Below are positions 24,196-53,200 of a DNA stretch of 64,000 nucleotides, one piece after another. A program made the position numbers and the translations under genes. The notes below the pieces were generated by a model. The model did not search any database. It saw nothing but the letters and a program-made list of their open reading frames with translations, and was not told where the DNA came from. This DNA is from Fragum whitleyi (lineage: Eukaryota > Mollusca > Bivalvia > Cardiida > Cardiidae): NCBI GenBank assembly GCA_948146395.1, contig OX411547.1, forward strand, positions 34,803,868 through 34,867,867, given 5' to 3'. Position 1 is the stretch's first letter. Each line of letters starts with the position of its first letter.

Positions 24196-24518
24196 CAAAA
24201 ACTGTATGTTGTTATTGTTTCATCATGTAAATTTTCCATCATGCCTCTTACACAAGCATGGGCAAACACTGCAAACTTCACTTATAACCATGTTTAATAA
24301 TGGTATATAATATCAGTTACAACCAAGTGAATTTCAAGATCCCATCACTCTTCTAAAAAGAAAAGCATACATTTAAAACAATATTCAGACATAACAATGC
24401 ATTTTATTTGGTCCACAGAGCAATAACATATCGTAAAATTACCGTGTTAAGGATTTTGACGCAACATCGCTGCTGAAAGTAACTCCAGAACCAGCTAGAG
24501 ATTGACCTTGACCTCACC

Positions 24519-24747: not shown

Positions 24748-24954
24748 AAAGGTCAACACAGTACATTGTACTTTTTAAATTGTCTGCATATTTATAGGTA
24801 CTTCCAATCCTTTGTGATGACCTTCCCATTTTAGTTGGAAAAACAATTTGACATGGAAAGATGCCTATATCCAGGTGCAGTCCTAAAGATAAGAGGGGAT
24901 AAAATCATTCTAGTTTTTATTTGTTTGAATCGGAGTTTTTACGCCCCTTTTACA

Positions 24955-25085
24955 TTATTTCAGTCATATCGCGGGGACTGGAGCGCCTAACCATGGATTC
25001 CTGGTATTTCTCAAACCAGTATTACCATCACATCCTTTCCTAGCCTCCAGCTGCTATCCCACATAGGTCTAGGATTATCAACCCA
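24955..25085 (-). mobile_element. Truncated tRNA-derived SINE body (copy A)
   Basis: The reverse SINE body is recognisable (GACTGGAGCGCCTAACCATGG to AACCCATTGGTGG) without the tRNA head. It would lie in the 3' UTR if the adjacent CDK5RAP3 exon copy is transcribed. Confidence 0.7.
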
Positions 25086-25232
25086 TTGGTGGTAGACGAA
25101 AAGTCTCAATAAGACGATTCAAATGAGTGTCAAATACAAAGAACTATTGAAAAATTTAGATCTTAAGTCAGTGTTCCCCCTTCCATCTGTAGCTTGGCAA
25201 AGATACAGGATAATTTCTATATCACAGAGTTA

Positions 25233-25304
25233 TCAAATAGTGTTTATTTCACCAATTATATTCACTTGTCTGTCTTTATACTTCTTGGAAATTTCACCCT
25301 CCAT
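25233..25304 (-). CDS. Second copy of the CDK5RAP3 terminal exon
   Basis: Behind a strong acceptor (TTTTGTTTCAG) the 72 bases encode 23 residues (MEGEISKKYKDRQVN, then IIGEINTI) and a stop. This matches the conserved C-terminus of CDK5RAP3. It equals the exon at 32171-32242 base for base, although about 15 substitutions occur in the roughly 290 bases on its 3' side. It lies 6.9 kb farther downstream in the transcription direction. It could serve as an alternative last exon or be unused; the phase (0) fits the upstream exon either way. Confidence 0.8.
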   Translation of the reverse strand: MEGEISKKYKDRQVNIIGEINTI

Positions 25305-25637
25305 CTGAAACAAAAGAATATATTCTTCTATTAGCCTAATATTTTGTTTACTTCTTTCCTTTTGACTTTCTGCCATTTAAGGTTTTGAGAGCCATCATAA
25401 ATATGGAATATTACAACAGCCTTTCTTTTTACTTGCCATTTGTGTAGTTCAGTAGCTTATGTACATACCAGGCGTTTAAAAGTATCATACATAAAGGTTA
25501 TAATAACCAAGCCTATTCTTGAAATGGAAAATGCGAAAATTATACCAGAGTTTTATCCTCATTGATAGTCTAGATAGCTCTTGTGATGGTTAACACACAT
25601 GCCAAGGATCAAAAAGATATCTTCAGTAACAACAGAG

Positions 25638-25885
25638 ATATGAGCCTGTGTATGACATTTCCAACAATTTGAAATGTTGGTGAGGTGCAAACATTGAGTA
25701 GCGTTGACAGTCACATACTGTAAATATTAAGTTACCTGATGGTCTACATATACTTTGAGATCTTATCTATCTACTGAACGCATAGTGAAGACTCTTATCA
25801 GACTGTGCGGATGCACAGGCTGGTAAGAGTCTTGTTTTTTTGAGCATATTTGAAATTGTTGGAAATCTCACGCACAGGCTCATAT
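25638..25885. mobile_element. MITE with about 33 bp inverted ends and internal cruciform, copy A
   Basis: ATATGAGCCTGTGTATGACA pairs with the inverse of ACGCACAGGCTCATAT. Nested inside, AAGACTCTTATCAGACTGTG forms a stem with its partner ending AAGAGTCTT. The duplicate in copy B is 32578-32822. Confidence 0.65.
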
Positions 25886-26151
25886 GAAAGAGAGACAATG
25901 GGTTCTAACCAATACTACCAATTTTTACAACTGGGTGTACTGGGGACAGGCGGTCGGACGCACGGACGGACGCCCCGCCATGACAAAAACGGGAAATAGG
26001 TATCCGACCAACCACAATTCGGTAAGCAAAAAATAATGAATAAACTTATTAGCATATGTAATTTCTTATTTTTACAAGTTTGTATGAACTTGATCAGATT
26101 TTATTAATAACTTATATCATCAGATTAATCGTCCATATTACATGATTTTTG

Positions 26152-26398
26152 AACGCCGCTTTCAACAATCTTTCAGTTATTTCGCGGGGGCTGGAACACC
26201 TAACAATGGTATTTCTCACACCAGTACTACCATCACATCCTTTCCCAACCTCCAGCTGCTATCCCACAAAGGTCTGCGATTTTCAACCCATTGGTTGGAC
26301 ACAAATAATAGAACAGGATTAGTGCCGCCTTCGGGGATTGAGTCCGAGACCTTTTGAATGATAGCTCAAAGCGCTACCCTTGCGCTATGACGGCGGCA
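26152..26398 (-). mobile_element. tRNA-derived SINE, reverse (duplication copy B)
   Basis: Counterpart of 18056-18303 with the same truncations. Small substitutions only. Confidence 0.75.
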
Positions 26399-26569
26399 CG
26401 ACATACCTTTTAGAAGGGTTACCTCCCCATCCCTCCGTTCGGAAGTACCAATAAGGTTAAGACCACAAATACGGTCTTCATCCTTCTACCTAGAGTGGTC
26501 ATAATGACGTTAGATCCTTCGAATCTCAAGACAAGTCACAGAACAAAAATATATAATCCATCGGAAATA

Positions 26570-26917
26570 CAGTAAAACTTGTATTAAGCGAGCACTTAAG
26601 GGACCACAAAAAAGCGGTCGTTTATGGGAATGGTTGCTTAATACGAAATACCATGATAAACGTGACAGTTTATTTTGACAGCATTTATAAAGCGTCGGTC
26701 AAGTCGAACTGAATCTTATGTTGTTGAAACCCGTTAGAATCGTCTAATTGAGACGATTTTATTGGGTTTCAACAACATTAGATTCAACAATAACCAATTT
26801 TTCGTTAAGAACGTCCTCTTTTTCAGAGAATTTGCTTACGGTGAGGGGACTTTTTATGGTGGTCGGTTAATAAAATCGGTCGCTTAATAGACGTGGTCGC
26901 TCGAGCAATATTGGCTG
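26570..26917. mobile_element. TA-flanked CAGTAAAACTTG MITE, present only in copy B
   Basis: The ends CAGTAAAACTTGTATTAAGC and the inverse CAGCCAATATTGCTCGAGCG are inverted repeats bordered by TA at 26568-26569 and 26918-26919. Copy A has the uninterrupted site ATATATGCCC near 18470. A long internal inverted repeat (GTTGTTGAAACCCG with CGGGTTTCAACAAC-like arm) folds the centre. TA duplication and CAGT ends fit the Tc1/mariner/pogo group. Relatives: 49075-49380 and 61928-62247. Confidence 0.8.
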
Positions 26918-29196
26918 TATATGCCCATTTTCACATAATGCACATTGTGAAAGTTTCATAAACTTTCGTGCATAGATGAAGGAGGAGTTATGCTAACGTG
27001 GAAATTTACATTATGACCCCCTCTTTCCGAGAACCCACATCCTGACAATTTTAGCATTATCAAATGAAAATGAGAAGATGATTAAAAGTTTATTAGGAAT
27101 TTTCCATTTTACCTCGACACCGAGAAATTACAATGGCAAAAAATTTGCCGTGGTTACACGATTCAAATTAACCTATTAAAGTTTTAGGAGCGGTAGTTTT
27201 TAAGGTAACTGCGGACACATAGAGAGCCATTTTAGGTCCAAATTTTAAATTGTCTGCATTCATGCCTAATGCGATAAAACTACACCTTGAAGTAGCCGCT
27301 TTCATATTTCGGTCATAAAAAGGAATTTCATAAAGTAGAGTTGACGTCATGACGTCATCAAGGGGCAGACCCCTTTTTTAGGGGCCAAAATCAGTAATGA
27401 TCCATTTTTTTCGGAAATAATAAACCGATTTTCATCCCGAAAACGCCATTTGCTTCGTTTAAAGACGCATGATCTTATGTTCTATTGACATTAGGATATA
27501 AGTTTAAGAAATACAATTAACGTATTAAATGTTAATGTCTTCTGCGTTGCTATTTTCGAGTACAGTCACTGGAAATACTGCCTTTTTCTCGAAAATTGGT
27601 CCGGTGACTTATGCTGAAATTTAGATATGTTGCTGCCAAACCATTCCGCTGAAGAAATTTGAAATAAAAAACATGTGTCTTCGGGTTAGATTTTTTGTAA
27701 AATTCGATTCCGCGTAGATAACGCAAATCATAGGATATTTCAACGTCGCGTCAAATGTTCACAAAAGCTGTCTTTTTTAACGGATAAAACTTAAGTGATT
27801 TTTTTATATTTCTTAAAATCACATCCAGATTTAATGCTTTTGAACCTTATATTTTAAGATAAACCTAAATTTCAAATATTTTACAATAAGTTATTGCACG
27901 GAGATTGGCGCCAAATAAGCATAGTGCAGATGGTTTTAGTGCGACGTCGAATTCGACGAAAACTGTTCCAACAACTTCACAAAATCGAATTTAATAAAAA
28001 AAATCTAACCCGCATATTCTTTCCGCTACAAATAACAAAAAATCAGCATAGGTCACCGGACGAAATTTTGAGAAATTTCTACTTATTTACAAAAAATGAA
28101 ATGAAAAAAGGAACGTCAAATCCTAAAATTCGCGAAATAGATAGCGTTTCGGGCCTATTATTCTATTTGAATGTGCACTGAAATTAAACAAATAGCTCGG
28201 GCGTTCTTGGACATTCAAAATGAAACATTTTTCGTGAAAATCGGCCGATTAATTCAGAAATATTGCAAATATAGATTTTGGCGGGTCGAAAAGGGGTTGG
28301 CCCCTTAATGACGTCACGACGTCAAATGAACGAGCTTCAGACCCTTTACATTGCGTGTTCGCTAATTCCCGCACTTCAAATATAAATCTCAGAAGTTATT
28401 GTGAGATTTTAAGAAAGTCGAAAATTCGACTATGTTATGTGTCCGCAGTTACCTTAAATAACAAGGAAGTTAACAGTTTTCTTTGACGCAGTATAAAATC
28501 CCCAGGCCACGTCAATGTGCACATGGTCACATTTTGTGAAAATTTCATGAACTTCTGTGCATAAATGAAGAACTATTTAGAAGGTATTAGATGACACTTG
28601 ACTGATCGAACCAATTTTCGAAAGGAATGACCCTTTTGGTGGTGCAATCTATCTGAGCAAGTTTAAAGACAATCGGATATTCACGTAAACCATGGTCTCT
28701 ATTGTGTTAACGATGGTTTTTAATTTAATTTTAATTAATCCACATTTCACGTCATACTTCGCGATCCTGGCCAATATTCGAAAAGAACGATCCTTGTGTT
28801 GGAACAATGCTTCTTGGCAAGTTTGAAGACAATTGAATGAGCTCTTTGGGCTCTAGCTTTTCTACATAAATTTTCATTATGCCCCTTTTCCCATGACGTT
28901 TGAAGAATCAGACACATTTCGAAAGGAACAAACCTGGAAACTGTATTATCATTTTGAACAATTTTGAAGACAATCGGATGAAAAACGTAGGCTCTAAATG
29001 TTAACGAGGGTTTTCTTATTGATCTAGACACCTTTTTCCGTGACGCTTGTTGCAATGAACCCATTTTCGAAAAAGAACGATCCTTGTAATGGTACAATTA
29101 TTCTGAGCAACTTTGAAGACAATCGGATTTCACTAGGCCCCAATTCCTGTGGCACATTTTCGAGAGAAAAAAATCCTTATCGTACTATCATACTGA

Positions 29197-29426
29197 CTTA
29201 ACACTTTCCTGTTTTACAAAATTTTGGACCTGTCAAAATTCAAAGGTTTTGCAGACGAAAATTTAAAGTGCATTTAATTTGAAAAAAAACCATCCAGTCG
29301 GGTAGAAAATAGAGTGGAAAATGAAGAAATTGCTTGTCAGAAGCAATTTCTTCTTTTTTCACAATGTTTTCTCAATCATAAAATCACAGGCATGTAAAAA
29401 GCAGGGATTATATAGCAAAGGGTTAA
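29197..29426. mobile_element. TTAA-flanked palindromic MITE, copy B1
   Basis: Both TTAA borders (29197-29200, 29423-29426), inverted ends and the central GAAGAAATTGCTTGTCAGAAG stem are present. It pairs with 22219-22422, which has an internal deletion on its right arm. Confidence 0.75.
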
Positions 29427-30315
29427 TTTTGAAGAAGAGTTGATAACGAACGGACTGAAGGAAGAACGCCAGACGGGAAAACCGTCACCGCATTAGCTTT
29501 TTTGATCTTTGGTATATTTTTTAATGCTTTTCGGTCGATTATCGAGAAATAACGGTAGATTATCACTTCATAAACTCACCAACTAACCAGTGAAATTATC
29601 AAAAACTTATTCCCCACTTTCCTCTATTTGACCCTTTATGACCTTATCAAAGTGGAGCTCAATAACTGACGTCATCATGAGCTGCATAGCAATCATGTGC
29701 TAAATGAGCGCTTAAATGAAATTTGTCAGTAATTAATCACATTTTGTCATTTTTGCATTAAAGAAATGAAATAAACGTTTGGTTTTCAAGTAAGATTGAT
29801 TGTAATTTCATTTTGTGAACAATAAAAGATATATTTTCACTCTTGGCTCTGCCACTCGTGAAAAAAGAAGCTTTTATTGTTCACCCAATAAAAATTTTAA
29901 AAAAAAAATAATCAATCTTATACTCTGCATGCTTCTAAGGGATACATCAAGCTTGTATGGGATGTGTTACCAACAAACAAAGGTGAGTGACTAGCATATA
30001 ATTTAATCATAACATGTTGTATGTACATTTCATTAACAATGTGTATCATCAAAAATGAACCTTTTCTTGAGCAGTCCAATAATTTCATCATCAGGAGATT
30101 TCATACTTGAGGTAATATTGTGAAGGAGAAGCAATTTCTGATTTCCTACAATATTTTTCACCATGTAGGATTTTCAAAGTGATTTTTCTTCATTGGCTGC
30201 AACCACACCAAGCGACCTTCACCTTTAATGGATTGCTCTAAGAGAAAAAAATAAATCGTGTAAAGTTGAAGGTGAATGTCTGCAAATTTTGGTAACACTA
30301 GCTTCATTTTGTTAT

Positions 30316-31047
30316 AATTGCAATCCAATAAAATAAAGAATTCTAATTGGTTTAAATAGCATCATGTTGGGGAAAACCATTGCACTTTATTTCTGTATAA
30401 AATGCAATAGGTCTTTCGAGAAACCCCAGACCTTCGACCAAAAGGTCCTGTGTTGTAGGATCTCGAAATAACCTAGTTTCCGATCATCAATGCACTATTG
30501 TAGTTTAATCTATTATAAATTAAGATATTTTCAAAAGAATTTACGATTACAAGCATGCAGTTCTGTTTCTGAGCCAACGTAAACTTAGAAAACAGCAAGT
30601 CGACAAAGACCATCAAGCGACCCTCTCAACTAGGACAGACCACGCTGTTTTCGTTTAAAAATACAGACTAACTTGGCAGAAACAAGTTTTTGTCATTAGT
30701 ACCTCTACGAATTTAAAAGTTGTCGTTTATTTGTGTATCATTTGTTTAACTTTATGACATTTCACTTCGATAGCGAGATAAAAAATACATGATCTAAAAG
30801 TAGATCGTGTATTCTATACACGCAGAAAGTAGACTTGAAGCTTTAATGTTTGTCCGAGTATTTTTATAGTTTCTTCGGTCTTGAGGATTGCAATTATAAG
30901 GGACGAGTGTCTTTTTCACTGCGTTTATTTGGGTATAAAGTGCATTTGCCTTAGCACATGGCTACGGGCGTTATGTTTAAGCCATGTGCTAAGGCAATTG
31001 CACTTTATACCCCAATAAACGCAGTGAAAAAGACACTCGTCCCTATA
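30316..31047 (+). mobile_element. Foldback-containing repeat P, copy B
   Basis: Equivalent of 23338-24090. The inverted repeat at 30908-31041 retains the GTGTCTTTTTCACTGCG and TATAAAGTGC arms, with a shorter loop than in copy A. Confidence 0.65.
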
Positions 31048-31455
31048 TCAAGTCATCATCTGGATAAGGTAGAGTGTACTTTTTGACTGACTGAACGACA
31101 ACTGTGACATCAGCCAGGCAACATAGGCTCACTTTGTTGAAGGGGGCGGAGGCAAAAAATGCATGTAAATTTTCCATCATGCCTCTTTCACAAGCATAGG
31201 CAAAAACTGCAAACTTCACTTATAACCATGTTTAATAATGGTATATAATATCAATTACAACCAAGTGAATTTCAAGATCCCACCACTCTTCTAAAAAGAA
31301 AAGCATCCATTAAAACAATATTCGGACATAACAATGCATTTTCTTTGGTCCACAGAGCAATAACATAACAGGATATTACTGTATCAAGGTTTTTACCACA
31401 ACATCACTGCTGAAAGTTACTCCAGAACCAGCTAGAGCTTGACCTCGACCTCACC

Positions 31456-31685
31456 TTAACCCTTTCCTGTTTTACAAAATTTTGGACCTGTCCAAATTCA
31501 AAGGTTTTGCAGACAAAAATTTAAAGTGGATTTAATTTGAAAAATAACCATATAGCAGGATAGAAAATAGTGTGGAAAAAGAAGAAATTGCTTGTCAGAA
31601 GCAATTTCTTCTTTTTTCACAATGTTTTTGTCTATCATAAAATCACAGGCACGTAAAAAGTAGGGATTAAACAGCAAAGGGTTAA
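31456..31685. mobile_element. TTAA-flanked palindromic MITE, copy B2
   Basis: TTAACCCTTTCCTGTTT at the left and the inverse of AAACAGCAAAGGGTTAA at the right, with the central hairpin. The cleanest member of the family; counterpart of 24519-24747. Confidence 0.8.
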
Positions 31686-31853
31686 AAAGGTCAACACAGT
31701 ACATTGTACTATTGAAATTGCCTGCATATTTATAGATACTTCCAATCCTTTGTGATGACCTTCCCATTTTAGTTGGAAAAACAATTTGACATGGAATGAT
31801 GCCTATATCTAGGTGCAGTCCTAAAGGTAAGAGGGGATAAAATCATTCTAGTT

Positions 31854-31859
31854 TTTATT
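31854..31859 (-). terminator. Candidate poly-A signal for CDK5RAP3
   Basis: TTTATT on the plus strand, AATAAA on the minus strand, about 310 bases past the CDK5RAP3 stop at 32171. The same signal exists in copy A at 24917-24922. Whether either is used is unknown. Confidence 0.3.
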
Positions 31860-31885
31860 TGTTTGAAACGTAGTTTTTAAGCCCC

Positions 31886-32030
31886 TTTTACATTATTTCA
31901 GTCATATCGCAGAGGCTGGAGCACCTAACCATGGATTCCTGGTATTTCTCAAACCAGTATTACCATCACATCCTTTCCTAGCCTCCAGCTGCTATCCCAC
32001 ATAGGTCTAGGATTATCAACCCATTGGTGG
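31886..32030 (-). mobile_element. Truncated tRNA-derived SINE body (copy B)
   Basis: Counterpart of 24955-25085, lacking the tRNA head. It lies within the presumed 3' UTR of CDK5RAP3. Confidence 0.7.
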
Positions 32031-32170
32031 TAGACGAAAAGTCTCAATGAGATGATTCAAATGAGTGTCCAATACAAAGAATTATTGAAATATTTAGATC
32101 TTAAGTCAGTTTTCCCCCTTCTATCCGTAGCTTTGCAAAGATACAGGACAATTTCTATATCACAGAATTA

Positions 32171-32242
32171 TCAAATAGTGTTTATTTCACCAATTATATT
32201 CACTTGTCTGTCTTTATACTTCTTGGAAATTTCACCCTCCAT
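32171..32242 (-). CDS. CDK5RAP3: CDK5RAP3 terminal exon (proximal copy)
   Basis: Phase 0 acceptor TTTTGTTTCAG, then 23 codons and TGA. It encodes the conserved basic C-terminus (ISKKYKDRQVN). This copy is the first reached by a transcript leaving the exon at 40593-40764, across an 8.35 kb intron of which about 6.4 kb is the Gypsy element. An identical second exon lies at 25233-25304. Confidence 0.88.
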   Translation of the reverse strand: MEGEISKKYKDRQVNIIGEINTI

Positions 32243-35200
32243 CTGAAACAAAAGAATATATTCTTCTATTAGCCTAATATTTTGTTTACTTCTTTTCCTT
32301 TTGACTTTCTGCCACTTAAGGCTTTGAGAGCCATCATAAATATGGAATATTACAACAGCCTTTCTTTTTTACTTGCCATTTGTGTAGTTTAGTAGCTTAT
32401 GTACATACCAGGCGTTTAAAAGTATCATACATAAAGGTTATAATAACCAAGCCTATTCTTGAAATGGAAAATGCGAAAATTATACCAGAGTTTTATCCTC
32501 ATTGATAGTCTAGATAGCTCTTGTGATGGTAAACACACATGCCAAGGAACAAAAAGATATCTTCAGTAACAACAGAGATATGAGCCTGTGTGTGACATTT
32601 CCAACAATTTGAAATGTTGGTGAGGTGCAAACATGGAGTAGCGTTGACAGTCACATACTGTAAATATTAAGTTTCCTGATGGTCTACATATACTTGAGAC
32701 CTTATCTATCTACTGAAAGCATAGTGAAGACTCTTGTCAGACTGTGCGGATGCACAGGCTGGTAAGAGTCTTGTTTTTGTGTATATTTGAAATTGTTGGA
32801 AATCTCACGCACAGGCTCATATGAGAGAGACAAAGGGTTCTAACCAATACTACCCATTTTTACAACTGGGTGTACTGGGGACACTACCCTTCTCTGGTGG
32901 GACTTTAAGCCCGCATCTATCCGATTAAAGGTCAAGCATGCTTACTACTCAGCCATAGAGCTAGAAAATATAATTTCTGGTCTAAATGATTTTTTTTTCC
33001 AAGAATTATTATTTATAATAACTAATGGATGTAAAAAACAAACTTCACAAACCAAAAGATATAGTGGATAATCATTGGTTGCTATGTAAGATCTCAAAAA
33101 AATCTATAACATCAATACCATGAAATGTTCTCAGCCAAGGGCAAGACAGATATGCCTTTTCACTCTTTGAATCTGCGTAAAAAAGGGTTGCACCCGGGTA
33201 GAGCCCAAATGTGACCCCAGGGTGTTGATATGAACAAACCATTAGAGAGGTCCATTAGATGATAATACAAACTTAATATGAAAGCTGTTTGCCTTCTGGT
33301 TTCAGAGAAGATGATTTTTGAAGGTTTACCTATTTTCACCCATCGTGCTCAGATGAGCAAAAAGGGATGCGCCCAAGTGGAGCCCCAATATGACTCCAGG
33401 GTCTTGATATGAACAAACTTGGTAGGGACCCACTAGATGATGCTACATACCAAGTATGAAAGCTGTGTGCCCTCTGGTTTGGGAAAACAAGATTTTTTAA
33501 GATTTTCGCTCTTGATTCTATGTAAAAGGGTTGCTCCCGGGTAGAGCCCAAATATGACCCCAGGGTCTTGATATGAACAAACTTGGTAAAGGTCCACTAG
33601 ATAATGCTACATACCATATATTGTTACGTGCCAATGTAACACGAACAAAGAAGCCAGCAACAAACTTTACAATTAACAATATTTATTGACAATAATACCA
33701 GAATTATTGACAATATGAAATTAATACAAAAACAATTTACAATACCTTGAATGTTTAATCCTAAAGTTTTAATTTTAGATCCAATTTAATTAAGTTCCTG
33801 GTCCACAAATAATAAGTCCAATAATATCCGAATTTAAAATTAAACACGCTTTTAAACACACTTTTAAGATAACAAGAAATCCCCTTTTAGTTTAACACAG
33901 TACTACTAAATGAAACCATAAGTCTAAATCAAGTGAACCAAGAATGCTGTAGGAACCCCTTTATATAATACTATAGAACAATCTGGAATAGTATAGAACA
34001 TAAGAATACTCTAGAGTCTGAATCACCTTCCAAAAGGCCTTTCTAGAAAGATCTACATAATTCTACATACATTTACGTAACAGAATCAAGAGATAAGAAA
34101 ATTCCCAGTCTAAAAATAGACACGGTAAATACCATTAGGTTTATTTATAGCTTATACATAACACTTTCCCCCTTGAAAGAAAAAAGAAAGGTTTATGAAA
34201 TAAATCTTTCTTTTTGTATTATCTTTAGCATATACAATGATAATATACTTTACATAATTAATAATATCATGATTTGTTGAAACATTTCAGCACATCTAGC
34301 ATGAAAATACAAACAATTTTCATCAAAAGAATTGAAAAAGAGATATATATATACAAACATATATACATATAAACAAAAAATATAGTGAAATGGTACTGTT
34401 AAATTCAATTTTATATTAAAGATAAGACAATTCAAAATTTTAGACTCTTGACAGAGCATCTGGTATAATATTGTCTTTTCCTTTAATGTGTCTTACATCA
34501 AGATCAAATTCTTGAAGTGACAAACTCCACCTCAATAATCTTTGGTTCTTACTCTTAAGTTTGTGAAGAAAACTTAAGGGATTGTGATCACTGAAAACAA
34601 CTATAGGAGAAGTTGCAGATGTTAAATAAACTTCAAAATGTTGGATTGCCAAAATCAGAGCAAGACATTCTTTTTCAATGGTTGAGTAGTTTTTCTGATG
34701 TTTGTTTAATTTTTTAGAAAAATAACAAACGGGATGATCAATACCATCATCGTCTTCTTGCAAGAGAACAGCACCAATACCCACATCACTTGCATCAACA
34801 GCTAATTTAAAACATTTTTCAAAATCAGGTGCTAAAAGAACTGGTGTGCTCTTTAGTATGGCTTTCAAGCGATCAAAGGCAACTTGACAGTTATCATTCC
34901 ATTTGAACTTAACATTTTTCTTTAATAAATTTGTTAAAGGTTCAGCTATTATAGAAAAATTCTTACAAAACTTTCTATAGTAGCCAGCCATACCAAGAAA
35001 TCGCATCAGTTGCTTTTTAGTAGCAGGCACTGGAAACTCAGAGATAGCATTGACCTTAGATTCTAAAGGTTTAACTTGACCCTGTCCCACAAGATGTCCT
35101 AAAAAAGTAACAGTAGCATGACAAAATTCTGTTTTTCCCAGATTAACAGTCAATTTTGCTTCACTGAGACGGTCGAAGAATTGTTTGATTCTTTGAAGGT

Positions 35201-38200
35201 GGTCACTCCATGTATCTGTATAGATGATGACATCATCGATGTATGCGTCACAGCCATCCAAGCCAGCTATAACCATATTTACAAGCCGCTGAAACGTCGC
35301 AGGAGAATTTTTCATCCCAAACGGCATAACTTTGTACTGGTACAGACCAGTTGGAGTAGCAAATGCTGATACTTCTTTAGCCCTATCAGTGAGCGGAACT
35401 TGCCAGAATCCTTTGAGAAGGTCAAATTTGGTGACATATTTAGAATTACCGACTTTGTCAATACAGTCATCAATTCTTGGAATTGGAAAAGAGTCAGTTT
35501 TTGTCACAGAGTTCACTTTTCGATAGTCAGTACACATTCTGTATGTTCCATTTGGCTTTGGAACTAATATACATGGTGAACTGTAATTACTTTGGCTGGG
35601 TTCAATAAAGTCATTCTCCAATAAGTAATTCACTTCGTCTTGAAGGGCTTTTTGTTTCACTGGATTCATTCTATAAGGATGTTGTTTTATTGGTTGAGAA
35701 TCTTCCACAATGACATCATGATATATTTTATCAGTTCTTGTTGGAATGTCAGGAAACAAGTGTTCATATTCATTAATCAACTGTTTCAGCTCTTCTCGTT
35801 GAGATGGCTCCAAATGTGAAAGTTTGTCGTCAAGATTCTTTAGTATTTCAGAGTTCTCAAGTTTAGGTGGACCAGGAACGGATTTTTCACTAAAGTCTGA
35901 ATTAACTTCTGATTCAATCACATTTGATTCTTGTGGGACAGTGTTTACAACTGTAGCCGGTTTTAAAATAGAGCTATCTCTGTCAAAATACTTTTTTAAC
36001 ATATTCACATGACACATTTGTTTATTTTTACGCCTTCCAGGAGTATTGATGATATAATACAAATCACTTGTTTTCTTATCAATAGTATACGGGCCATAAT
36101 ATCTTGCCTGTAAGGGTCGGCCAGGTATTGGCAAAAGAGCAAGGACTTTATCACCTGGTTCAAATTTCCTATCAACACTATGCTTGTCATATCTTGCCTT
36201 CATTTTGCTCTGAGATGATTTAAGATTTGACCTAGCAACCTCACATGCCCTAGACAGTTTATTTCTGAAGTCAGAAACATACTGTAATAAGTTCAAGGGT
36301 GTTTCATCATCAGCAAGAAATTTCTCTTTTAAGAGTGTTAATGGCCCACGAACAGAATGACCAAAAACTAACTCAAAGGGGCTAAAGCCAAGAGATTCTT
36401 GAACAGATTCTCTGACTGCAAATAATAGCAAATGAATACCTTCATCCCAGTTTTTCTCAGTATCGAAACAATATGACCTTATCATATTCTTTAGGGTCTG
36501 ATGAAATCTTTCTAAAGCACCTTGACTTTCAGGATGATAAGCAGATGACAGATATTGCTTGATACCTAATTCATGCATAACCTGTTGGAATATGCCTGAC
36601 ATGAAGTTTGATCCTTGATCAGACTGAACTGATTTTGGAAGGCCAACAAAAGTAAAGAACTTGACAAGAGCCTTAACGATTGACTTTGCCTTAATGTTTC
36701 TTAAAGGAATTGCTTCTGGGAAGCGAGTAGAAGCACACATAATTGTCAACAAATATTCAGAACCTGACTTGGTTTTTGGTAAAGGACCAACGCAGTCTAT
36801 TATTATTCGACTGAAAGGTTCATCAAAAGCTGGAATGGGTTGTAACCTTGCTTTTGGAATAACTTGGTTAGGTTTCCCTACCATTTGACAAGTGTGGCAA
36901 CTTTTACAATATTTGGAAACGTCCGATTTAAGTCCAGGCCAAAAGAAATGAGTTATAATCTTGTGATAAGTCTTGTTTACACCTAAATGACCAGACATTG
37001 GACTTTCATGTGCTATACTAAGTATTTCATGGCGATATGACTTTGGAACAACAATTTGGTGATGAACAGCCCAATCATCATCAGCTGAGACACCAAATGG
37101 TCGCCATTTTCTCATCAGCATACCATTCTTTTTATAGTAACAAACAGGATTCTGAGACATTTCTTTTTCGGGTAATGCCCTATCAATCAACTTTGAAATC
37201 TCAGGATCATTTTGCTGTTCCTGGATTAACTTTGACTTTGAATGCGTTTCATGACCTTGGTCATTTGACCTTGGAGATGACTGACAAAATTTTGACGAGT
37301 CTGTCTGAGTATCAGGCAGACTAAGATTAAAAGACTTTTTAATCTCGTCATTGAAATATTGACCAACAAAAGTATCAGTTAAGTCAATATCATTTGAATT
37401 TTTCAAGGAAGCTTTTTTAGCCATACCCCGAGTTACTGCACATGAAGGGTACAAATCAGGTATTTCCTGCAAAATAGGATCATCTGTTTGACCTACATTA
37501 GGTGTGTCAGTTACAAGAGGATTAACAACAACCTTATCTCCAGCTAAGTCATTGCCTAGCAATAAATGTACACCTTTAAATGGTAAAGAATGTTTAACAC
37601 CAACAACCACAGAACCAGTAACCAAATCCGAGGACAAATTAACCTTATGAAGAGGAACATTAATAACACCACACTCTACACCCTGAATAAGGACACTAGT
37701 ACCAGACGAAGTCTTCTCAGAAAAAGGCAGAACATCTGCTAAAATAAGAGATTGAGAAGCTCCTGTGTCTCTTAAAATTTTAATAGGGGTAGGTGGGCAC
37801 ATATCACCTGAAAGTGATACAAAACCATCCAAAATGAACGGTTCAAAAATCTCCATACAGGAATCAGAATTTGGTTCTGCCTTAACAATTGAATTTAACT
37901 CAAAAGAAGGCTGTGATTTAGGCTGAAGGCTGGTGAGCCCTGTAGGTTTGGCTGCACTCAGTTCCTTCTTCCTTTTTAATCTAAAACATTCCGAAATAAG
38001 GTGACCTGGTTTTTTACAAAAAGTACAATGTACTCGAGATAAGGGATTTTGAACATTGGTTTCACCAGTAGACTTTGGTTTAGGTGAATTCGATTGACTA
38101 GACATGCTAGATGAATCACCAGACATAGATTTATTTTGGGGATGTGAGGAAGCAGGTTTTGCTTTATTAACGAAAGAATTTTTGTGTGTAAGGTAGTAAT

Positions 38201-41200
38201 CATCAGCTAAACGAGCTGCTTCATGTATAGTTTCAACAGTTTTTTCATCTAAATGTGACTTAATGTCAGATTGAATGCAATTTTTGAATTGTTCAATTAA
38301 TATAAGTTGTCTAAGATTATCATAATTTTGGTCTATTTTCTTAGAATAGCACCACCTGTCAAATAATTTTTCTTCGTTTCTTGCAAATTCAACGTGAGTC
38401 TGGCCAGATTCTTTTCTACAACTTCTAAATTGTTGTCTGTATGCTTCTGGAACCAGCTCATAACCTTTGAGAATGAGTTCTTTTACAGTATCATAATCAT
38501 TGCTTTGTTCTGTTCTAAGTTGCGAATAAATATTGCGAGCTTTTCCTACTAAGACACTTTGGAGAAGTAAGGTCCATTGCTCCTTTGGCCATTTCAAGTT
38601 ATTTGCAACTTTTTCAAAATGTTCGAAATATGTATCAACTTCATTTTCTTGAAATTGAGGAACAAGCCTAAAATGTTTTGTTACATCAAAATTGTCATTA
38701 TACATATCTCTGGGCTGATTTGCTCTATCTTGTATTTCTAATTCTTTTAATCGTAATTGAAATGCTCTTTCTTCTCTTTCCCTCTCTCTTTCTATTTCTC
38801 TCTCTTCTCTTTCTCGCTCTTCCTTTTCCCTTTCTCTCTCTCTTTCCCTTTCTTCCTTTTCCCTTTGAAATTGCCTTTCTCTTTCTTTTTCTTCAATTTC
38901 TCTTTGTGCTCTTTCTCTTTCAATTTCAATTTCTAATTGCTTTTCTTGAAATTTCCGCTCTTCTCTCTCTCTTTCTATTTCCAATTCCTTCTCCCTTTGT
39001 TGAAGTTTTAACAGTTCAAGATCTCTTGAGCTTGAAACTGATGGAACATCAACAATGAGAGACAGAGCCTTTTCATCAAAAATGTCCTCATCAACAAAAT
39101 ATTGAACCAAAATATTCTTAATTTCATGCTTTCGCAATGAGGACTTGACTTCTTTTAATTCATAATGCTTGGCAAGATTGAGCAAATCAGGCTTTTTACC
39201 CAAATTCAATAACTCCACGGAAGGTTCGTGCGTAAATTTTTCTAAGTCAAAAGACATGGTAGCTTGTTGCTGTATTTGAATAAGAATGTAAGATTTCGAT
39301 AAATAATAGTGAAAGTGCACTCTAGATTTATCAAAATTGAAATATGAAATTAATTTCTTAAATAATTTTGAACAGTAGATATAAATAAAGAATTTGTTTG
39401 ATTTGTTTTGTTTTGTTTGTTTGTCTGATATTCGTATCTCGAGACGAGCCCCCAAATTGTTACGTGCCAATGTAACACGAACAAAGAAGCCAGCAACAAA
39501 CTTTACAATTAACAATATTTATTGACAATAATACCAGAATTATTGACAATTTGAAATTAATACAAAAACAATTTACAATACCTTGAATGTTTAATCCTAA
39601 AGTTTTAATTTTAGATCCAATTTAATTAAGTTCCTGGTCCACAAATAATAAGTCCAATAATATCCGAATTTAAAATTAAACACGCTTTTAAACACACTTT
39701 TAAGATAACAAGAAATCCCCTTTTAGTTTAACACAGTACTACTAAATGAAACCATAAGTCTAAATCAAGTGAACCAAGAATGCTGTAGGAACCCCTTTAT
39801 ATAATACTATAGAACAATCTGGAATAGTATAGAACATAAGAATACTCTAGAGTCTGAATCACCTTCCAAAAGGCCTTTCTAGAAAGATCTACATAATTCT
39901 ACATACATTTACGTAACAGAATCAAGAGATAAGAAAATTCCCAGTCTAAAAATAGACACGGTAAATACCATTAGGTTTATTTATAGCTTATACATAACAA
40001 TATGAAAGCTGTCTGCCTTCTGGTTTCAGAGAAGAAGATTTTTGAATATTTTCATATTTTTTACCCTTTTTGTTAAGGGTAAAGGGAAAGTTAAGGGTGG
40101 ATTTCATTTATTTGAACAAATTTGGTAGAGCTTGACCCAAGGAAGATCCCTGCCAAGTTTCATCAAGATTAGCCAACTGGTTTAGGCGGAGAAGATGTTT
40201 AAAGAAATTGTGGACGAGGCATGACGCACGACTGACATTCTACTATCACAATAGCTCACCCTAAGCACTTCCTGCTCAGGTGAGCTAAAAACTAACAATT
40301 AATCTATTTCAATTTCTTTATTGCAGAATGACACATAAAATTAAGGGCTAATTTTCTTTAAGTGCGTCATTTTGCATGAAATTACTATGCAATGTTCATG
40401 GTGACTTAACTTTTTTTGGACTCCGCTTTGATGACATTAGATAGGGTGAGATGAACAAAAGCAGGGTATAAGTCTTTGGTAATTTCACTTTTCAGGCACT
40501 TTCAAGTGATAATCTACCCTTGTTTCGTGATAAACCACCAAAAAGCTTGAACAATTTTTTTTTTAACCAGGGCTTACTCATACTGTACATACCTGTTTTT
40601 TCATCTCTTTAGTTTTACGTACAAGAAAGTCAATACTTGGTTGTATTTCATTCTCATCCTGCAATGCCTGGTTTCTCTTTATCACAACTTTTTTCTCATT
40701 AAAGGCCATCTTATCTGCTACAGTTAACAACTGCTTCAAGGAGTCTCTTAGTCGATCTACATATCTGTAAAATCAATCGAAGATATATCCTGATAATTCA
40801 TATCCTCTCAATAGGGAACAAGCAACTACCAGTGGTTATATACTACATGGAATTAAGAAGTATATCATATTAAACTTTGAAAATGACTTTGACTGATGTC
40901 CATGAAAATGTTACCAACAGAAAGGGTTGTTACAAGTAATATAGGGATGAGTGTCTTTTTCACTGCGTTAATTGGGGTATAAAGTGCAATTGTGCAAACG
41001 CTGTGAAAAAGACACTCTGCTCTTATAATTGCAATCCTCTTGGTCTAAGAAACTATTAAAATACTCGGCTAAACATCAAAATTTCGAGTCTACTTTCTGC
41101 GTGTATTACACAATCTATTTTTAGATCGTGTATTTTTTTCTCGCTATCGAAGTTAAACGGCATAAAGTTAAACAAATGGTACACAAATAAACGACAATTT

Positions 41201-44200: not shown

Positions 44201-47200
44201 AAGTTGATTGGGCTAAAAATATGGCCTCTAGAATGTCCACAAGTTTTTTTTGAGATTTGACACAGTGACCTGGTTTGTGACCAAATTAAGATCTTGTCAG
44301 AGATTCGAGCTAAGGTTAGCTAAAAATGGAAAAAAAATCTCCATACTAAAAAAGGAAACTCAAAATAAGCCTCTCATTGTCACGCCTGAATATATGGACC
44401 AATCTAAATTTTGCCAACAATTTTTGAAAAGGGTCACCCAAGGAACATTCCGCTTCAGTTTCATTGAAATCAGCCCAGTGGTTCAGGAGGAGATGTTGCT
44501 CAAAGATTTTGGGCTCAAAATAAGCCCAGCCCTGCAACGCCCATATTAATGGGCCTATAAAAATTTCACGAACAATTTTTGACACCAAAGGAAAACTCTG
44601 GTAGAGTTTCATTGAAATTGGCCCAGTGGTTCAGGTGGAGATGTCATTGAAAGATTTTGGGCTCAAAATAAGCCCTGCACTGTCACACCCATTTTCAAGG
44701 GCCAATCAAATTTCATGAACAATTTTTGAAGAGGGTCACTCAAGGATATTCTGGTAGAGTTGCATTGAAATTGGCCAAGTGGTTCAGGAGAAGATGTCGT
44801 TCAAAGATTTTGGGCTCAAAATAAGCCCCATCCTACCACGCCCATATTCATTGGCCAATCAAAATTTCGTCAACAATTTTTGAAAAGAGTCACCCATGGA
44901 ACATCATGCTTAAGTTTCATTGAAATAAGCCAAGTGGTTCAGGAGGAGAGGTGGTTCAAAGATTTTGGGCTCAAAATAAGCCCCACCCTGCCATGCCCTT
45001 ATTTATGGGCCAATCAAAAGTTCATTCGTCAACAAATTTTGAAAAGAGTCACCCATGGAACATCATGCTTAAGTTTCATTGAAATAAGCCGAGAGGTTCA
45101 GGAGGAGAGGTGGTTCAAAGATTTTGCGCTCAAAATAAGCCCCGTCCTAACATGCCCTTATTTATGGGCCAATCAAAAGTTCAAATACAATTTTTGACAC
45201 CTAAGGAACATTCTGGTAAATTTTCATTGAAATTTGCCGGTTGGTTCAGGAGGAGATGTCATTCAAAGATTTCAGGCTCAAAATAAGCCCTGCCCTGTCA
45301 CGCCAATACTAATGGGCCAAGCAAAATTTAATTAACAATTTTTGAAGAGGGTAACCCAGGGAACATTCTGGTAGAGTTGCATTGAAATTGGCCAAGTGGT
45401 TCAGGAGAAGATGTTGTTCAAAGATCTTGGTCTCAAAATAAGCTCCATCCTACCACGCCTATATTCATTGGCCAATCAAAATTTCGTCAACAATTTTTGA
45501 AAAGAGTCACCCACAGAACATTGTGCTTGAGTTTCATTGAAATAAGCCAAGTGGTTCAGGAGGAGAGGTGGTTCAAAGATTTTGGGCTCAAAATAAGCCC
45601 CGTCCTGCCATGCCCTTGTTTATGGGCCAATCAAAAGTTCAATTACCATTTTTGACACCAAAGGAACATTCTGGTAAATTTTCATTGAAATTTGCCGGTT
45701 GGTTCAGGAGGAGATGTCATATAAAGATTTCAGGCTCAAAATAAGCCCACCTGCCACGCCAATACTAATGGGCCAATCAAAATTTCAATCACAATTTTTG
45801 AAGAGGGTAACCCAGGGAACATTCTGGTAGAGTTGCATTGAAATTGGTCAAGTTGTTCAGGAGAAATGTTGTTCAAAGATTTTGGGCTCAAAATAATCCC
45901 TGTCCTGCCCTACCCATATTCATGGGCCAATTAATATTTTGCAAACATTTTGTGAAAAAGGTCACCCAGGGAACATTCTGGTACATTTCATTGAAATCAG
46001 CCCAGGAGGAGATGTCATTTAAAGATTTCGGGCTCAAAATAAGCCTAGTCCTGCCATGCCCATATTTATTGGCCAATCAAAAGTTCATGAACAATTTTTG
46101 CAGATGGTCATCCAAGGAGCATTCTGGTAAAGTTTCATTGAAATTGGCTGGGTGGTTCAGGAGGAGATGTTGTTCAAAGATTTTTGGGCTCAAAATTAGC
46201 CCTGACCTGAAATGCCCACATTTATGGGCCTTCAAAATTTCAGGAACAAATTTTGAAGTAGGTCACCCAAAAGAACACTCTGGTAAAGTTTCATTGAAAT
46301 TGTCTTAAGTGTTTAGGAGGAGATGTTGTTCAAAGGATTTGGGCTCAAAATAAGCCCTGCCCTGCCACGCCCTTTTTTATGGGCCAATCAAAATTTCAAG
46401 AACAATTTTTGAAGAGGGTCAACCAAGAAACTTTCTGGTAAAGTTTCATTGAAATCAGCTCAGTGGTTCAGGAAGAGATGTCATTCAAATATTTAGGGCT
46501 CTAAATAAACCCCACCCTGCAATGCCCATATTTATGGGCTAATCAAAATTTCAGGATAATTTTTTGAAAAGGGTCATCTATTCTGGCAAAGTTGAAATCC
46601 CAGTGGTTTGGGAGAAGAAGAAGGTTTTATAGATTGTTGATGACAGACGAAGCACTAAGCACGACAGACTCATGGTGATCCTTAAAGCTCCCCTTAAGCA
46701 TGTTGTGCTTTGGTGAGCTAAAAATGATTCCATGATAATCAGAATGATATGTAAGCATCATCAAGATAAATTCTCCCAACCTCAACTAGATAACATTGAT
46801 ATTTATGAAATAATGTCATTTCGCTATGATGTGTAGATGAAAAAGTCTGGTGGAGAAGGAGTTATATGCAAAAGGTAAATTCTGAGGGTGGAGCCCGAGG
46901 ATTTTGCTTTGCATATAACTCCTCCCCAAGTGTTATTTATGGGTTATACGATATCAAAAGAATAGATGTTCGAGCTAAAGATGACATTGATGAAAAAATG
47001 TGTGGAGCTATTCTGTGTTCACATGTAAAACACATGACATATGAATTTTATAGCAAATAAAGTTTTAAGTAATTTTTTCTTATTTCATATAAGAGTTTTA
47101 TGCCATTGTGTTATAATATAAGACATTAAAATATTCTCTATACAATACCTGGGTGAATTTCTTATTAACATTAAATGTTGAATCTGTTTTGATGTAAATT

Positions 47201-50200
47201 TCTCAATAATGTGCCTGACATCTATCAACATAGTCTCTACTTCATTGGCATCTATCTGTATGGACAAAGGGGCTGAACTCAACTGTGTTGATGAGGTGTA
47301 GTTATTATCTCCCTTTAACTCCAAAAGTCTCTCTGACAGGAATGCCTCTAACTATAATTAAATTGCATATTCATTTCATACCTTAAAGACACACTTTGTA
47401 AATGTTTAAATATTCAGTTGCATATTTTCTAATTAATGATGTAAGAGGTTCTGATCTCTTTAATACTTGATAATGAAAAGTTGTTTGAGAAACAACATTT
47501 GGTTAGTTTAAAATCTTTGTATTATAAAACTTTATTGCATGTCAAAAATTAAGAATACATGTATTCAATACTAGTATATTAATAATTAAGATGACATAGG
47601 TAAATTTAAAAAGTTTAAGTTAAAACATTAAGTACACTTTTTTTTTCATAAAATAAATTATGAATTTGACTCTGAAGTTAACGCAAATGGATAGACATTT
47701 TGTGTTTACTGAAAGATTTGTCAAATAGAAGCTACTTTGAATCAAATGGAAAGACATATGCAAAGATTGACAGAAAAGATGTGTGTGTAAGGTCACAGAG
47801 TGTTTTGTCAAACATAAGCCATTTTAAATCAAATTGCAAATTCAATTCTAAAGAGCAAATAAATTTGAGGGATCAGTGCATCACTATTGTAAGTGTCTAT
47901 GGTGTTACATAAACCCCATCGATCTTAGGATTTACAGACAGAGAGACAAATTGACAATGAGAGCCTCACCTCATACAGGTCATCCAAGAAGAGATTGCGT
48001 GTTGTTGGGTTATCTAACAATGACAGAGCATCTTCACCGGCTGCCACTCCTGCTGTAAAGATAAATAAGCTTGCACGTGACATTACCAACAATTTTACAT
48101 GTACACAAAGCTAAGTCTCTGGCCAGTCTGTGCATCTGCATAGTCTGACCAGAGTCTCAGCTATGCGCTCTATAGATAGAAAAGGTCTCAGCTCCTCTAA
48201 TGGCTGTCTGTCTGATATTCTTTTTGCAATGTTTAGTTTTCTATGCAACATTATTTTCTATCAATCACATACACATGAAATGTACGCACAGGCTCGAATA
48301 ATGCTAAACTAGAAGGTATAAACGAGATAAACCCTTTACTATTCTACATTTGACATCTTATGAACTTTTATAATATCTATTGATTGATTGAATGGAGTTA
48401 TACGCTGTTTTCAACATTTTTTCAGTTATGTTGCAAAGGCTGGAGCACCTAACAATGGAGTCCTGGTATTTCTCACACCAGTACTACCTTAATATTCTTT
48501 CCTAGCCTCCAGCTGCTACACCACATAGGTCTAGGATTATTGACCAATTGGTGGGAGACAAATAGTCGGAAAGAATTAAAAGTGCCGCTGTCTGGGATCA
48601 AACCCAGGACCTCTAGATTGACAGTCCTATACGCTACCGAATGTGCTATAACCTATGTTGCCTGAGTGAATATTTTTTATGCTTATATAAGTATTATTAT
48701 TAGTATTATTACTTAGTGCATGTAAATGAGCTCAGAGCATATATCAATGCTATTTTTGTAAGCCTGAAAATGACAACAATATGTATTATGTGAAGAGGTC
48801 ATTTTTAAATGATGTATGTAACAAGAAAAGAAATAAATGGTAAATTTCAATAATTTTGCTTTCCAAAGCCTTAATTGCTCTGTCTATAGATGATTTGTCT
48901 AATAAATTTGGTATTTTGGGACCAGTATTTTTATATTTTATTAATGATATAACTCAATTTGCAATAAATCATACCATTATATGTATATAGAGAATATTGA
49001 ATGAGTGGACATAAAATACCAAATTTATTGAACTTGTCAACTAAAACAGATTAACTCGGCACTGCCTTGTTATACATTTAATCTTGCTTGAGCGACCACT
49101 TCTATTAATCGACCACTTTTATTAAGCAACCATTGTAAAAAGTCCCTTCGCCGTAAGTGAAATTTCCGCAAAAATGGACATTCTTAAATGAAAAAATGTC
49201 TCATTGAGATGATTCTTATGGGTTCGAACATCCTATGATTCAGTCAGAATTATGTTGCAGTCTTTATATTCTATAAAAAACACGTCCTTTTAACATTTAT
49301 AATTGTATTAAGCGACCATTTCCATAAGCGACTGCTTTTTTAATGGCCCCCTCAGTAGTCGCTTAGCGCAAGTTTTACTGTAATTCTAATTTCTCCACTA
49401 TGACCACATCCTCACCATTATTCTGATCTCCCCCGTTTGATTCTTCACCTAGCTGTTCTACACTTTGATCATAGTACCATGCATATATGTTACACTAAGG
49501 TTGTTACAGTAATTACCCTCTGATTTCTCCACTATAACCACATCCTCACAACAGTCATGCTTTCCCAGGTCTATTTCTTCACGTATAGGTAGATTTTGCG
49601 TGGTGAGCCATGAAATCAACTTTTTAACGTTAGATTCTCGTGCCATTTGTTCCAAATAGATAAAACAGGTTTAAAACGCGAATTAAGAAAGTTTAAAATA
49701 TACCTTTCAAACCAACGTTATTGCTTGTCTTACAACGTAAGGTTCACTCAAACATGTACTTTCATAATTGCAGTGAAGGGATCTGGTTAAATTCCTTTCA
49801 TTTGCTTTTTTAATCATACCCAATTCACCTATGGTAATAGACTCGGCGCCTACGTCAGAGCTCAGTTTTGAAAATACACCTATAGCTGTTCTACTTTAGA
49901 TCATAGTACCATGCATAAATGTTACACAAAGGAAGTTATAATAATTACCCTCTGATTTCTCCACTGTAACCACATCCTCACCATTACCCTGATCTCCCAA
50001 GTTTATTTCTTCTCCTAACTGTTCTACACTTCAATCTATAGCACAATGTATATCGAGGGGTCAAAGCAACACACTTGTAAGTGCCTATAAATATAGGCAC
50101 TTACAAAAGTGTCGCACTGACCCATCGATATGTGTATATCACACCAATAATTACCCTCTGATTTCTCCACTATAACCACATCTTCACCATTACCCTGATC

Positions 50201-53200
50201 TCCCCAGTTTATTTCTTCTCCTAACTGTTCTACACTTAGATCTATAGCACAATGTATATTGAGGGGTCAAAACAACACACTTGTAAGTGCCTATAAATAT
50301 AGGCACTTACAAAAGTGTCGCACTGACCCCTTAATATGTGTACATAACACTAAGGTTGTTACAATAATTACCCTCTGATTTCTCCACTATAACCACATTC
50401 TCACCATTATCCTGATTTCCCTAGTCTATTTCTTCTCCTAGCTGTTCTACACTTAGATCATAGTACCATGCATAAATGTGTTACACTAAGATTGTTACAA
50501 TAATTACCCTCTGATCTCTCCACTATTACCTCATCCTCACAACTGTAATGCGTTCCAAAGTCTGTTTCTTCACCTAACTGTTCTACACTTAGATCATAGT
50601 ATCATTTATATGTGTATATAACACTAATGAAGTTACAATAATTACCCTCTGATTTCTCCACTATAACCACATTCTCACAACTGTCATGCTTTCCCAGGTC
50701 CGTTTTCTTCACCTAGCTGTTCTACATTTAGATCATAGTATCATTTATATGTGTATATAACACCAAGGAAGTTACAATAATTACCCTCTGATTTCTCCAC
50801 TATAACCACATCTTCACCATTACCCTGATCTCCCCAGTCTATTTCTTCTCCTAGCTGTTCTACACTTAGATCTATTGTGCCCTGCGAAAAATGAAAGTAA
50901 TGATGAAAATGGCCAAGAACAACTAAAACACTAGATTCAAAACAGCAAAGCTAAAATCCATTCATTTTAAAGATATTATGGGGGAATTTCTAGATTTTTG
51001 TTTTACTATTCTTGAATTCTAGAATTGATTCTTTCATTCTAACATATTAACAGGTTTCAAAGCTTTAGATAATAGGTTGTCTTATTAAGTTAGTGGACCT
51101 GTAAAAGATCTGCAACATTTCGAAATTATGAACTTTAACACTTTCCTGTTTGAATTCAAAGGTTTTGCAGACAAAAATCTACAGTGGATTTAATTTTTGC
51201 TTTTTACGTGCCTGTGTGTTTTTATGATTGAGAAAACATTGTGAAAAAAGAAGAAATTGCTTCTGACAAGCGATTTCTTCTTTTTCCACACTTTTTTCTA
51301 CCCTACTGAATGGCTATTTTTCAAATCAAATCCACTTTTATTTTTTGTCTGCAAAACCTTTGAATTTGGACAGGTCCAAAATTTTGTAAAACAGGAAAGG
51401 GGTAATTAAAAGATGAATGTTGATGTCATTTAGAATGTAATGCTTCACATGTGTAAGACAAGGATATCTCTGATTGGTGATTATTAAAAGGCAAGAGGGG
51501 CTATGTGAGATTATTATACTTAACCCTTGTCATGCTGAACCCGGAATATTCCTGCTTTGGCAGGAGCTTTAGACAAACACCAGCCTGCACATATGTGCAG
51601 TCTGATGTTAGTCTACACCACCTGTTTCTCACTTTCAAACCAGAATTGTCAATAGATTTAGTTTTTCAAATAAAATTTGACCTACAGTTGGGATTTTCAG
51701 TGCTTTTTGCCCTTTGATTTTGATAGAAATTTTTAGCCAAAATTTATTCAGCATGACAAGGGTTAAGATGAATTGACTACCTGTCCTTCATCTGTCCCTC
51801 CACTCTCTATAGTTATATCTGATATATCAAAGTCTATCTCTGCCTCGGTGTTGCCAGTGTCCAAGTCTATATCTCCCCAATCTATCTGTAATTACAGAAG
51901 GGGAAAATGTTTTAGGAGGATATGATAAACTGTAATGAACAGCCCTGCTAACGAATGCTACACCAGGGTTCAACACTTACTTTTGTGGGTAAGGAGTCCA
52001 GTGGACTCCCAACAAAAGAAATCATCGAGTCCAAACTCAAAGTAAGGAGTTCAAATTTTCATATTTGGAAGAACATTGTGGAAAAGACAAAATTGCTTGC
52101 TAAAAGCAATTTCTTCTTTTCCTCATGTTCCCTCTGAAATGTTATCTGCAACATCTCATATTGTAAACAGAGCTAAACGAATGAAAGTTGCTCTGTTTGT
52201 TGAACTATTCTTCTATGACCAAGGGAGTCCATTGAACTCCTAACTTACAAAATAAGGGATTATGAACTGAAAAATAAGGAGTATTGGACTCCTGGGCTCT
52301 CCGTAGTGTCGAACCCTGCACACTCAGCTGCCAGGGCCTACCCTGGGTCAAAATTTCTTTTAGCCAACCTTTTAGGCAATTTGAAAATATTTTAGTCAAA
52401 TTGACTTTATTTTAGCCATCTAATTCTCTCAAGGTAAAAAAAAATCTAAAAGTTGCAATATATCTTTGCCTCTTGACAAGTCAATCAAAGGTGTGAAGGA
52501 TTATCTCACACATCAATTTGTTAATTGTTCTACCAATGATCTTAACACTTTTGATTTCACTTTTCTATATAATGGCCTTTCCAAAATTATATCCACCCTT
52601 AGCCAACATTTTTAGCCAATTGAATTTTTTTGTAGCCAATTTTTTGAAATTTTAGCCAATGGCTAAATTGGCTTAGGGCAGGGTAAGCCCTGGCTGCAGA
52701 TGTATGAAATAGAATAAATCTTAATTGACCAACATTTGTTAATGAAAAAAACAAAATAAGACCAGAAGACAAACCATGATGGTCCTAAATCACTCGCCCT
52801 TGTCTTCTTGACTTCTCCCTAGGCAAATTGAAATGTCTATGCAGATCATTTGATGAACATTAAAGGCTAATTTTTCAGCAAAAGATATTATTGTAGTGTT
52901 ATCAATTTTACCCGTTCCCAAACGACAAAATTTTAGGGTAGTTCAAATTCAAAGCTGCTGCAGACGACAACATTAAAGTAACTAAAATGGAATATTATGT
53001 ACAATATAGCACATAAAATATTGAGGCAAAAGGAGAAACTTCTTTTGCCTCAATGTTTTCCAAAGCCTTTTCTCTTAGGGACGTCAAAACCCGGTCTTGG
53101 TTGGAAAAGGGTTAATGGGATGATACAATTATCAATAGGGTTCATCCTCATGATGAAACAGACATTCTGACCATGTTTCATTATGATTGGGCCATACTTG

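Follow-up and report, generated by a model that had tools for sequence, protein, structure and literature searches.

The stretch analysed here, referred to as the window, comprises 64,000 nucleotides (64 kb) of contig OX411547.1 of the bivalve Fragum whitleyi (assembly GCA_948146395.1, positions 34,803,868 to 34,867,867 of the forward strand), and its minus strand encodes CDK5RAP3/C53, a gene in which one exon with an IDWG motif, called U1 below, is followed by seven tandem copies of most of itself. From nine recognised exons a protein could be assembled, the main part of which matches the Pfam profile PF05600 (E value 1e-83, profile positions 138-484 of 502), and one further exon matches positions 115-138 of the same profile (E value 8.2e-08). 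The profile match extends across most of the protein, as would be required of a member of the CDK5RAP3/C53 family; the human C53 chain of the solved structures was also matched (E value 3.5e-71), and the gene assignment made in a preliminary description of the locus is borne out.

According to the extracts used of the two articles, human C53 contains three IDWG motifs, at W269, W294 and W312 (PMC7515635), which bind ATG8 proteins as well as UFM1 (PMC10183829). The middle disordered region of the protein encoded in the window holds two IDWGD motifs, both in constitutive exons. That of the upstream exon 51781..51885 (acceptor score 8.7, donor score 10.2) corresponds in the alignment to the first human IDWG, that of U1 to the third, so the amplified exon is an IDWG-motif exon, as had been stated. 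This arrangement resembles the shuffled ATG8-interacting motif region of C53 in the first and third motif places, but the window protein lacks an IDWG that would correspond to the second human one, and an IDFD occurs between its two IDWGD. U1 also contains a second site, AGG/GTAATG, at 50823 (minus strand), which scores 4.3 as a donor against 3.6 for the U1 donor proper; its use, 39 nucleotides before the latter and likewise in phase 1, would shorten the protein in frame by the 13 residues that follow IDWGDQ. Downstream of the array, the next exon has a NAGNAG acceptor (CAGCAG, 48050-48055), both options of which are in frame, one residue apart.

The eight homologous units stand head to tail at regular spacing on the minus strand between 49383 and 50881, in the manner of a minisatellite, U1 being followed downstream by the copies U2 to U8 (Table 1). 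Tandem Repeats Finder picks up the array (scores 823 and 731, periods 139 and 206), a repeat search yields seven ungapped copies of 86 nucleotides, the reference counted (U2 is absent owing to its extra base), and a unit-start pattern, allowing up to three mismatches, is matched seven times against 0.27 expected, none of 100 shuffles reaching seven; the unit missed by this pattern is U7, which is split by an insert. On the presence of eight units at this place, as first described, these approaches agree. Between the exon-like cores, pairwise identity ranges from 75.4 to 97.7% over 28 pairs, with U7 compared over 65 nucleotides and the extra base of U2 omitted. When the 1.22-Gb genome (38 contigs) was searched with 50360-50900, which covers U1-U4, four match rows were obtained from one candidate, and all four lie in this locus; no second locus of the U1-U4 units was found by this search, which skips very common words, and for that reason rare copies elsewhere in the genome are to be called unlikely rather than absent. 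The unit-start count, the core identities and the genome search therefore indicate that the array is real and, within the genome searched, local. Chance similarity was rejected on the unit-start count and its shuffles. A dispersed repeat unrelated to this gene's exon was also rejected, given that this is the only locus found with U1-U4 and that U1 is homologous to human C53.

Table 1. Units of the array, elements inserted in it and the adjacent constitutive exons (window coordinates)
Feature	Position	Strand	Remarks
Upstream constitutive exon	51781..51885	minus	phase 0-0, 35 codons; IDWGD at start, IDFD later
U1, real exon	50785..50881	minus	97 nucleotides, phase 0-1, GTIDLSVEQLGEEIDWGDQGNGEDVVIVEKSE; acceptor gcag 50882-50885, donor GT 50784-50783
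U2, pseudo-exon	50647..50734	minus	one extra base; no AG at U1-acceptor position; donor copy at 50645
U3, pseudo-exon	50509..50595	minus	TDFG replaces IDWG; no AG at U1-acceptor position
U4, pseudo-exon	50373..50459	minus	TAG in motif; no AG at U1-acceptor position
Palindromic element, copy	50256..50337	none	between U4 and U5; hairpin -51.4 kcal/mol
U5	50155..50241	minus	87 nucleotides, 29 amino acids, phase 1-1, open, INWGD; AG directly before, acceptor score 3.3
Palindromic element, second copy	50050..50131	none	between U5 and U6; 206-bp period
U6, pseudo-exon	49950..50036	minus	TGA at codon 2; INLG
U7, 5' piece	49883..49902	minus	
Terminal inverted repeat (TIR) element in U7	49584..49884	none	about 300 bp, TA at both ends; ends TAGGTGTATTTT / TAGGTAGATTTT
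U7, 3' piece	49518..49582	minus	donor copy at 49516
U8, pseudo-exon	49384..49470	minus	SNGG replaces IDWG; donor lost, other sequence from about 49383
Downstream constitutive exon	47970..48052	minus	phase 1-0; GVAAGEDALSLLDNPTTRNLFLDDLYE; tandem CAGCAG acceptor

The array is very probably an intronic minisatellite that took up the 3' part of the U1 exon and now decays neutrally, with no gain in motif valency, as is argued from the homology and anatomy of the units, their missing AGs, their substitution pattern, their insertions and the single locus found. Clear homology starts with GATC at 50872, nine bases into the U1 exon, and the repeated piece consists of the last 88 of the 97 exonic bases of U1, the donor and roughly 50 intron bases. 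An exon was indeed amplified in tandem, as had been proposed, but not the whole of it; U1 itself, described as an intact exon, is open and has a good acceptor. At the place of the U1 acceptor an AG is found in none of the seven copies, the gcag of U1 being replaced by gcat, aaat or acat. Acceptors were scored with a small model built from the eight other acceptors of the gene, which range from 4.0 to 14.3, and the U1 acceptor, at 6.7, is the best-scoring AG of the array. Ten bases beyond U1's place, U5 and U6 have an AG that scores 3.3, a value attained by 10.4% of the 1245 AGs in the surrounding 22 kb. All segments of up to 200 nucleotides leading from an AG to one of the seven donors (those of U1-U7, U8 being donorless) were evaluated for in-frame, stop-free exons in phases 1-1 and 0-1; among U2-U7 the best choice was U5 at 3.3, the next scoring 0.6 and below. 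The pair of splice sites that the copies of a functional tandem exon duplication would carry was not found in these copies, U5 alone having an in-frame alternative above 0.6, and, judging from the sequence, the copies are probably not spliced into mRNA.

The copies also change as non-coding DNA would. Five of the seven are damaged (U2 by its extra base, U4 and U6 by stops, U7 by its insert and U8 by the loss of its donor), and U3, U5 and U8 retain the exon frame without a stop. The defects listed in the preliminary description, namely a TAG in the motif of U4, a frameshift in U2 and altered motifs, here in U3, U6 and U8, were all found again; its view that most units are relaxed holds for their present state, and the earlier constraint which it implied is not needed by the data. 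On a maximum-likelihood tree, computed with the extra-base column of U2 dropped and the 5' piece of U7 coded as missing, parsimony changes at codon positions 1, 2 and 3 number 16, 15 and 11, and the variable columns 10, 11 and 9, of 29 each. Eight of the 35 distinct changes from U1 are synonymous, against a neutral mean of 8.7 (probability of at least that many, 0.69), and one single change makes a stop against 1.9 expected, the neutral expectation being taken from 5000 random draws with matched transition count; no synonymous excess was found among these 35 changes. Mean divergence is 0.147 in the core and 0.120 in a 26-nucleotide intron-like flank (15 pairs, averaged by hand), the core not being lower. 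The coding constraint that would mark functional exon copies was not detected, in a comparison whose power is low where one unit alone, such as U5, is concerned. Since the copies lack a good acceptor and decay like non-coding DNA, the mature protein probably retains the usual set of motifs, IDWGD twice and IDFD once.

With regard to the growth of the array, U3 and U4 are only 3.8% divergent in the flank but 18.4% in the core, and U2 and U7 are 6.2% divergent in the core but 15.4% in the flank. Core and flank types thus appear to have been reshuffled among the units, a pattern that fits unequal exchange, through which the array would have grown; these mosaic units, together with the two periods, agree with the minisatellite-like behaviour attributed to the exon earlier. 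The branch of U1 has zero length, as if U1 were kept while the copies drift. Between the units of U5 and U6, palindromic element included, 13 of 206 positions differ, five of 87 in the core and eight of 119 outside, which again gives no sign of constraint; the second palindrome stands in register with the first at this level of difference and was therefore probably duplicated together with its unit. As to the insert of U7, at least 44 rows, of the 47 matched in another genome search, lie elsewhere in the genome and hit this element (40 of 6199 first-look candidates were scored), and all seven retrieved copies have the same ends adjoining TA. When the flanks of the insert are joined a unit is restored, with one mismatch in 14 bases at the junction and one base missing further off. 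Many dispersed copies, terminal inverted repeats and a target duplication are thereby present, as in a TIR transposon or miniature inverted-repeat transposable element (MITE).

These observations can be arranged in a probable sequence of events. The third IDWG motif is provided by U1, the one exon of the array that works, and a segment made of its last 88 bases, the donor and roughly 50 intron bases would have multiplied in the downstream intron through unequal exchange. The first repeat unit would have been of 139 bp, the 206-bp unit arising later, once the palindromic element had inserted. Growth would have resembled that of the other intronic arrays of the region. The acceptorless copies would be removed with the intron, so that the array would do nothing for the protein, and they would decay neutrally while transposons insert.

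Several observations weigh against this account. The upstream flank resembles the U1 acceptor region weakly in U4, U7 and U8 (p 0.011-0.013 each, not independent), and no such resemblance was seen in the flanks of the other four copies (p 0.19-0.75); the acceptor was therefore either lost early or never copied, and it may once have been copied and later lost. Duplication of the whole exon with its acceptor, for which this weak resemblance in three of the seven copies is what speaks, may have taken place but was not adopted. Inside U3, an AG at 50542 scores 4.3, above the weakest acceptor of the gene (4.0), although with the U3 donor it gives no in-frame exon under the two phase settings. The donor of U1 itself, AGG/GTAATT, is weak (3.6 against 6.7-10.6 for the other eight donors of the gene) and is present in identical form in six copies. 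As the donor of a real exon comes out weak in a model built from eight sites, the splice scores are a rough guide and not proof. Moreover, 35-42 changes in 87 bases would hardly reveal a constraint that acts on a single unit, and support for the tree is low, with bootstrap values of 40-53 at all nodes except that of U2, U3 and U7 (96). The branch of U5, like that of U1, has zero length, its two differences from U1 in 87 bases lying on the branch common to U6, and of the five core differences between U5 and U6 three are unique to U6, two are common with other units and none is unique to U5. This polarity is a slight hint in favour of U5, from differences too few to judge.

In this context, U5 deserves separate consideration, since it is the only copy that forms an open phase 1-1 candidate cassette directly preceded by an AG scoring above 0; the earlier claim of an open symmetric cassette with INWGD was upheld. 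It is improbable, all the same, that U5 is a real alternative cassette, which some tissues would splice in after U1 and before the exon at 48052, thereby adding 29 residues with INWGD and altering the binding of UFM1 or ATG8. Its donor equals that of U1, its acceptor scores best of any copy, it is 97.7% identical to U1, sharing with it a base (column 59) that no other unit has, and a pyrimidine stretch contributed by the palindromic element lies further upstream. That acceptor nevertheless falls short of the weakest other acceptor of the gene, the sister unit U6 has the same AG with a stop at codon 2, and the near-identity of U5 and U1 may come from exchange between units. Position 2 of its motif is an asparagine, and in the extract used of PMC10183829 the authors think the aspartate at this position important for UFM1 binding. 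The more elaborate form of the idea, in which U5 would be a new MITE-flanked cassette with a new acceptor, giving an isoform of C53 that has an additional, weaker INWGD, and the array would differ in copy number between individuals, is to be regarded as quite unlikely.

The preliminary description had further suggested that added units changed the binding valency of the protein. A present gain through all units was rejected, the acceptors being missing and coding constraint absent. That the units formerly made up a functional array with several motifs and a higher valency, since released from constraint, is very improbable too: motif variants exist and U3, U5 and U8 are stop-free, but the lack of any synonymous excess, the divergence of the core against that of the flank and the absence of an AG at the U1-acceptor place in all seven copies speak against the proposal for the past as well as for the present.

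Hardly any probability is assigned to an action of the array on splicing or RNA, either by competition of its donors with that of U1 or by pairing of the palindromes, which would loop out U5 for back-splicing or RNA editing. In favour of such an action, seven AGG/GTAATT donors are available, one in each of U1-U7, and U5 sits between palindromes with which it folds at -130.3 kcal/mol (z -11.6; none of 100 shuffles equals it). Reading on from U1 into the intron, however, meets a stop after 13 intronic codons, and with the pairing span restricted to 110 nucleotides, that is, as two separate hairpins, the energy is still -127.5 kcal/mol; these values being nearly equal, pairing around U5 is hardly favoured, and its looping out was rejected on this ground. 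Finally, tandem arrays can be mis-assembled, but units that differ by 2-25% and carry different insertions make an assembly artefact extremely unlikely.

The rest of the window is also rich in repeats. Eight other long-period arrays were found in it. Their periods range from 144 to 456 bp, and five of the arrays fall, by position, within introns of CDK5RAP3; the one at 44359-46576 lies in another intron of this gene and repeats a 155-bp unit about 14 times. The last CDK5RAP3 intron contains an LTR (long terminal repeat) retroelement, gypsy-like by eye (33620-39999), whose minus strand holds a long open frame; its LTR-like pair is 99.8% identical over 544 bases, and the element is probably a recent insertion. 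Furthermore, 17885-25948 and 25985-32883 form a tandem segmental duplication of 7-8 kb, which aligns in three pieces at 91-97% identity. Its copies hold, at about 32240 and 25300 of the minus strand, what looks by eye, from its similarity to the human end, like the last CDK5RAP3 exon. Both are preceded by an identical TTTCAG acceptor and contain an open frame that ends ISKKYKDRQVNIIGEINTI, and the gene may therefore have two possible last exons. Each copy of the duplication also contains one tRNA-like match on the minus strand (18230-18301 and 26323-26394), with scores of 39.7 bits and of 29 bits, the latter just at the gathering score.

The array is best classed as a combination of tandem exon duplication and intronic minisatellite. 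It resembles the intronic long-period arrays in its period of 139-206 bp, its mosaic units and the eight neighbouring arrays of the window, and differs from them in that the unit holds most of a coding exon together with a donor site. To our knowledge, a dead array of seven donor-bearing exon copies is uncommon, but it is not a new kind. With tandem exon duplications, as far as the extracts used of PMC9013439 and PMC9741552 go, it has in common an exon-like copy beside its source in the same gene; the copies treated there are expressed or possibly so, often in a mutually exclusive way, whereas the seven found here are acceptorless and look dead. An extract of PMC6071210 likewise concerns copies with actual or possible expression, and duplications are proposed there to take in adjacent intron with stem-loops. 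No exon array in CDK5RAP3 is described in the titles and abstract openings of the open-licence PMC literature searched.

The locus offers a clear case of failed tandem exon duplication, in which the duplicated segment ends before a working acceptor is reached, and it illustrates that an exon which carries its donor along can be multiplied within an intron, leave the protein unaltered and afterwards decay. This underlines a caution for gene finders and readers alike, since such units should not be counted as extra protein motifs. Were U5 to be spliced after all, the array would represent a natural experiment in which the number of motifs in the UFM1/ATG8 switch of C53 has been altered.

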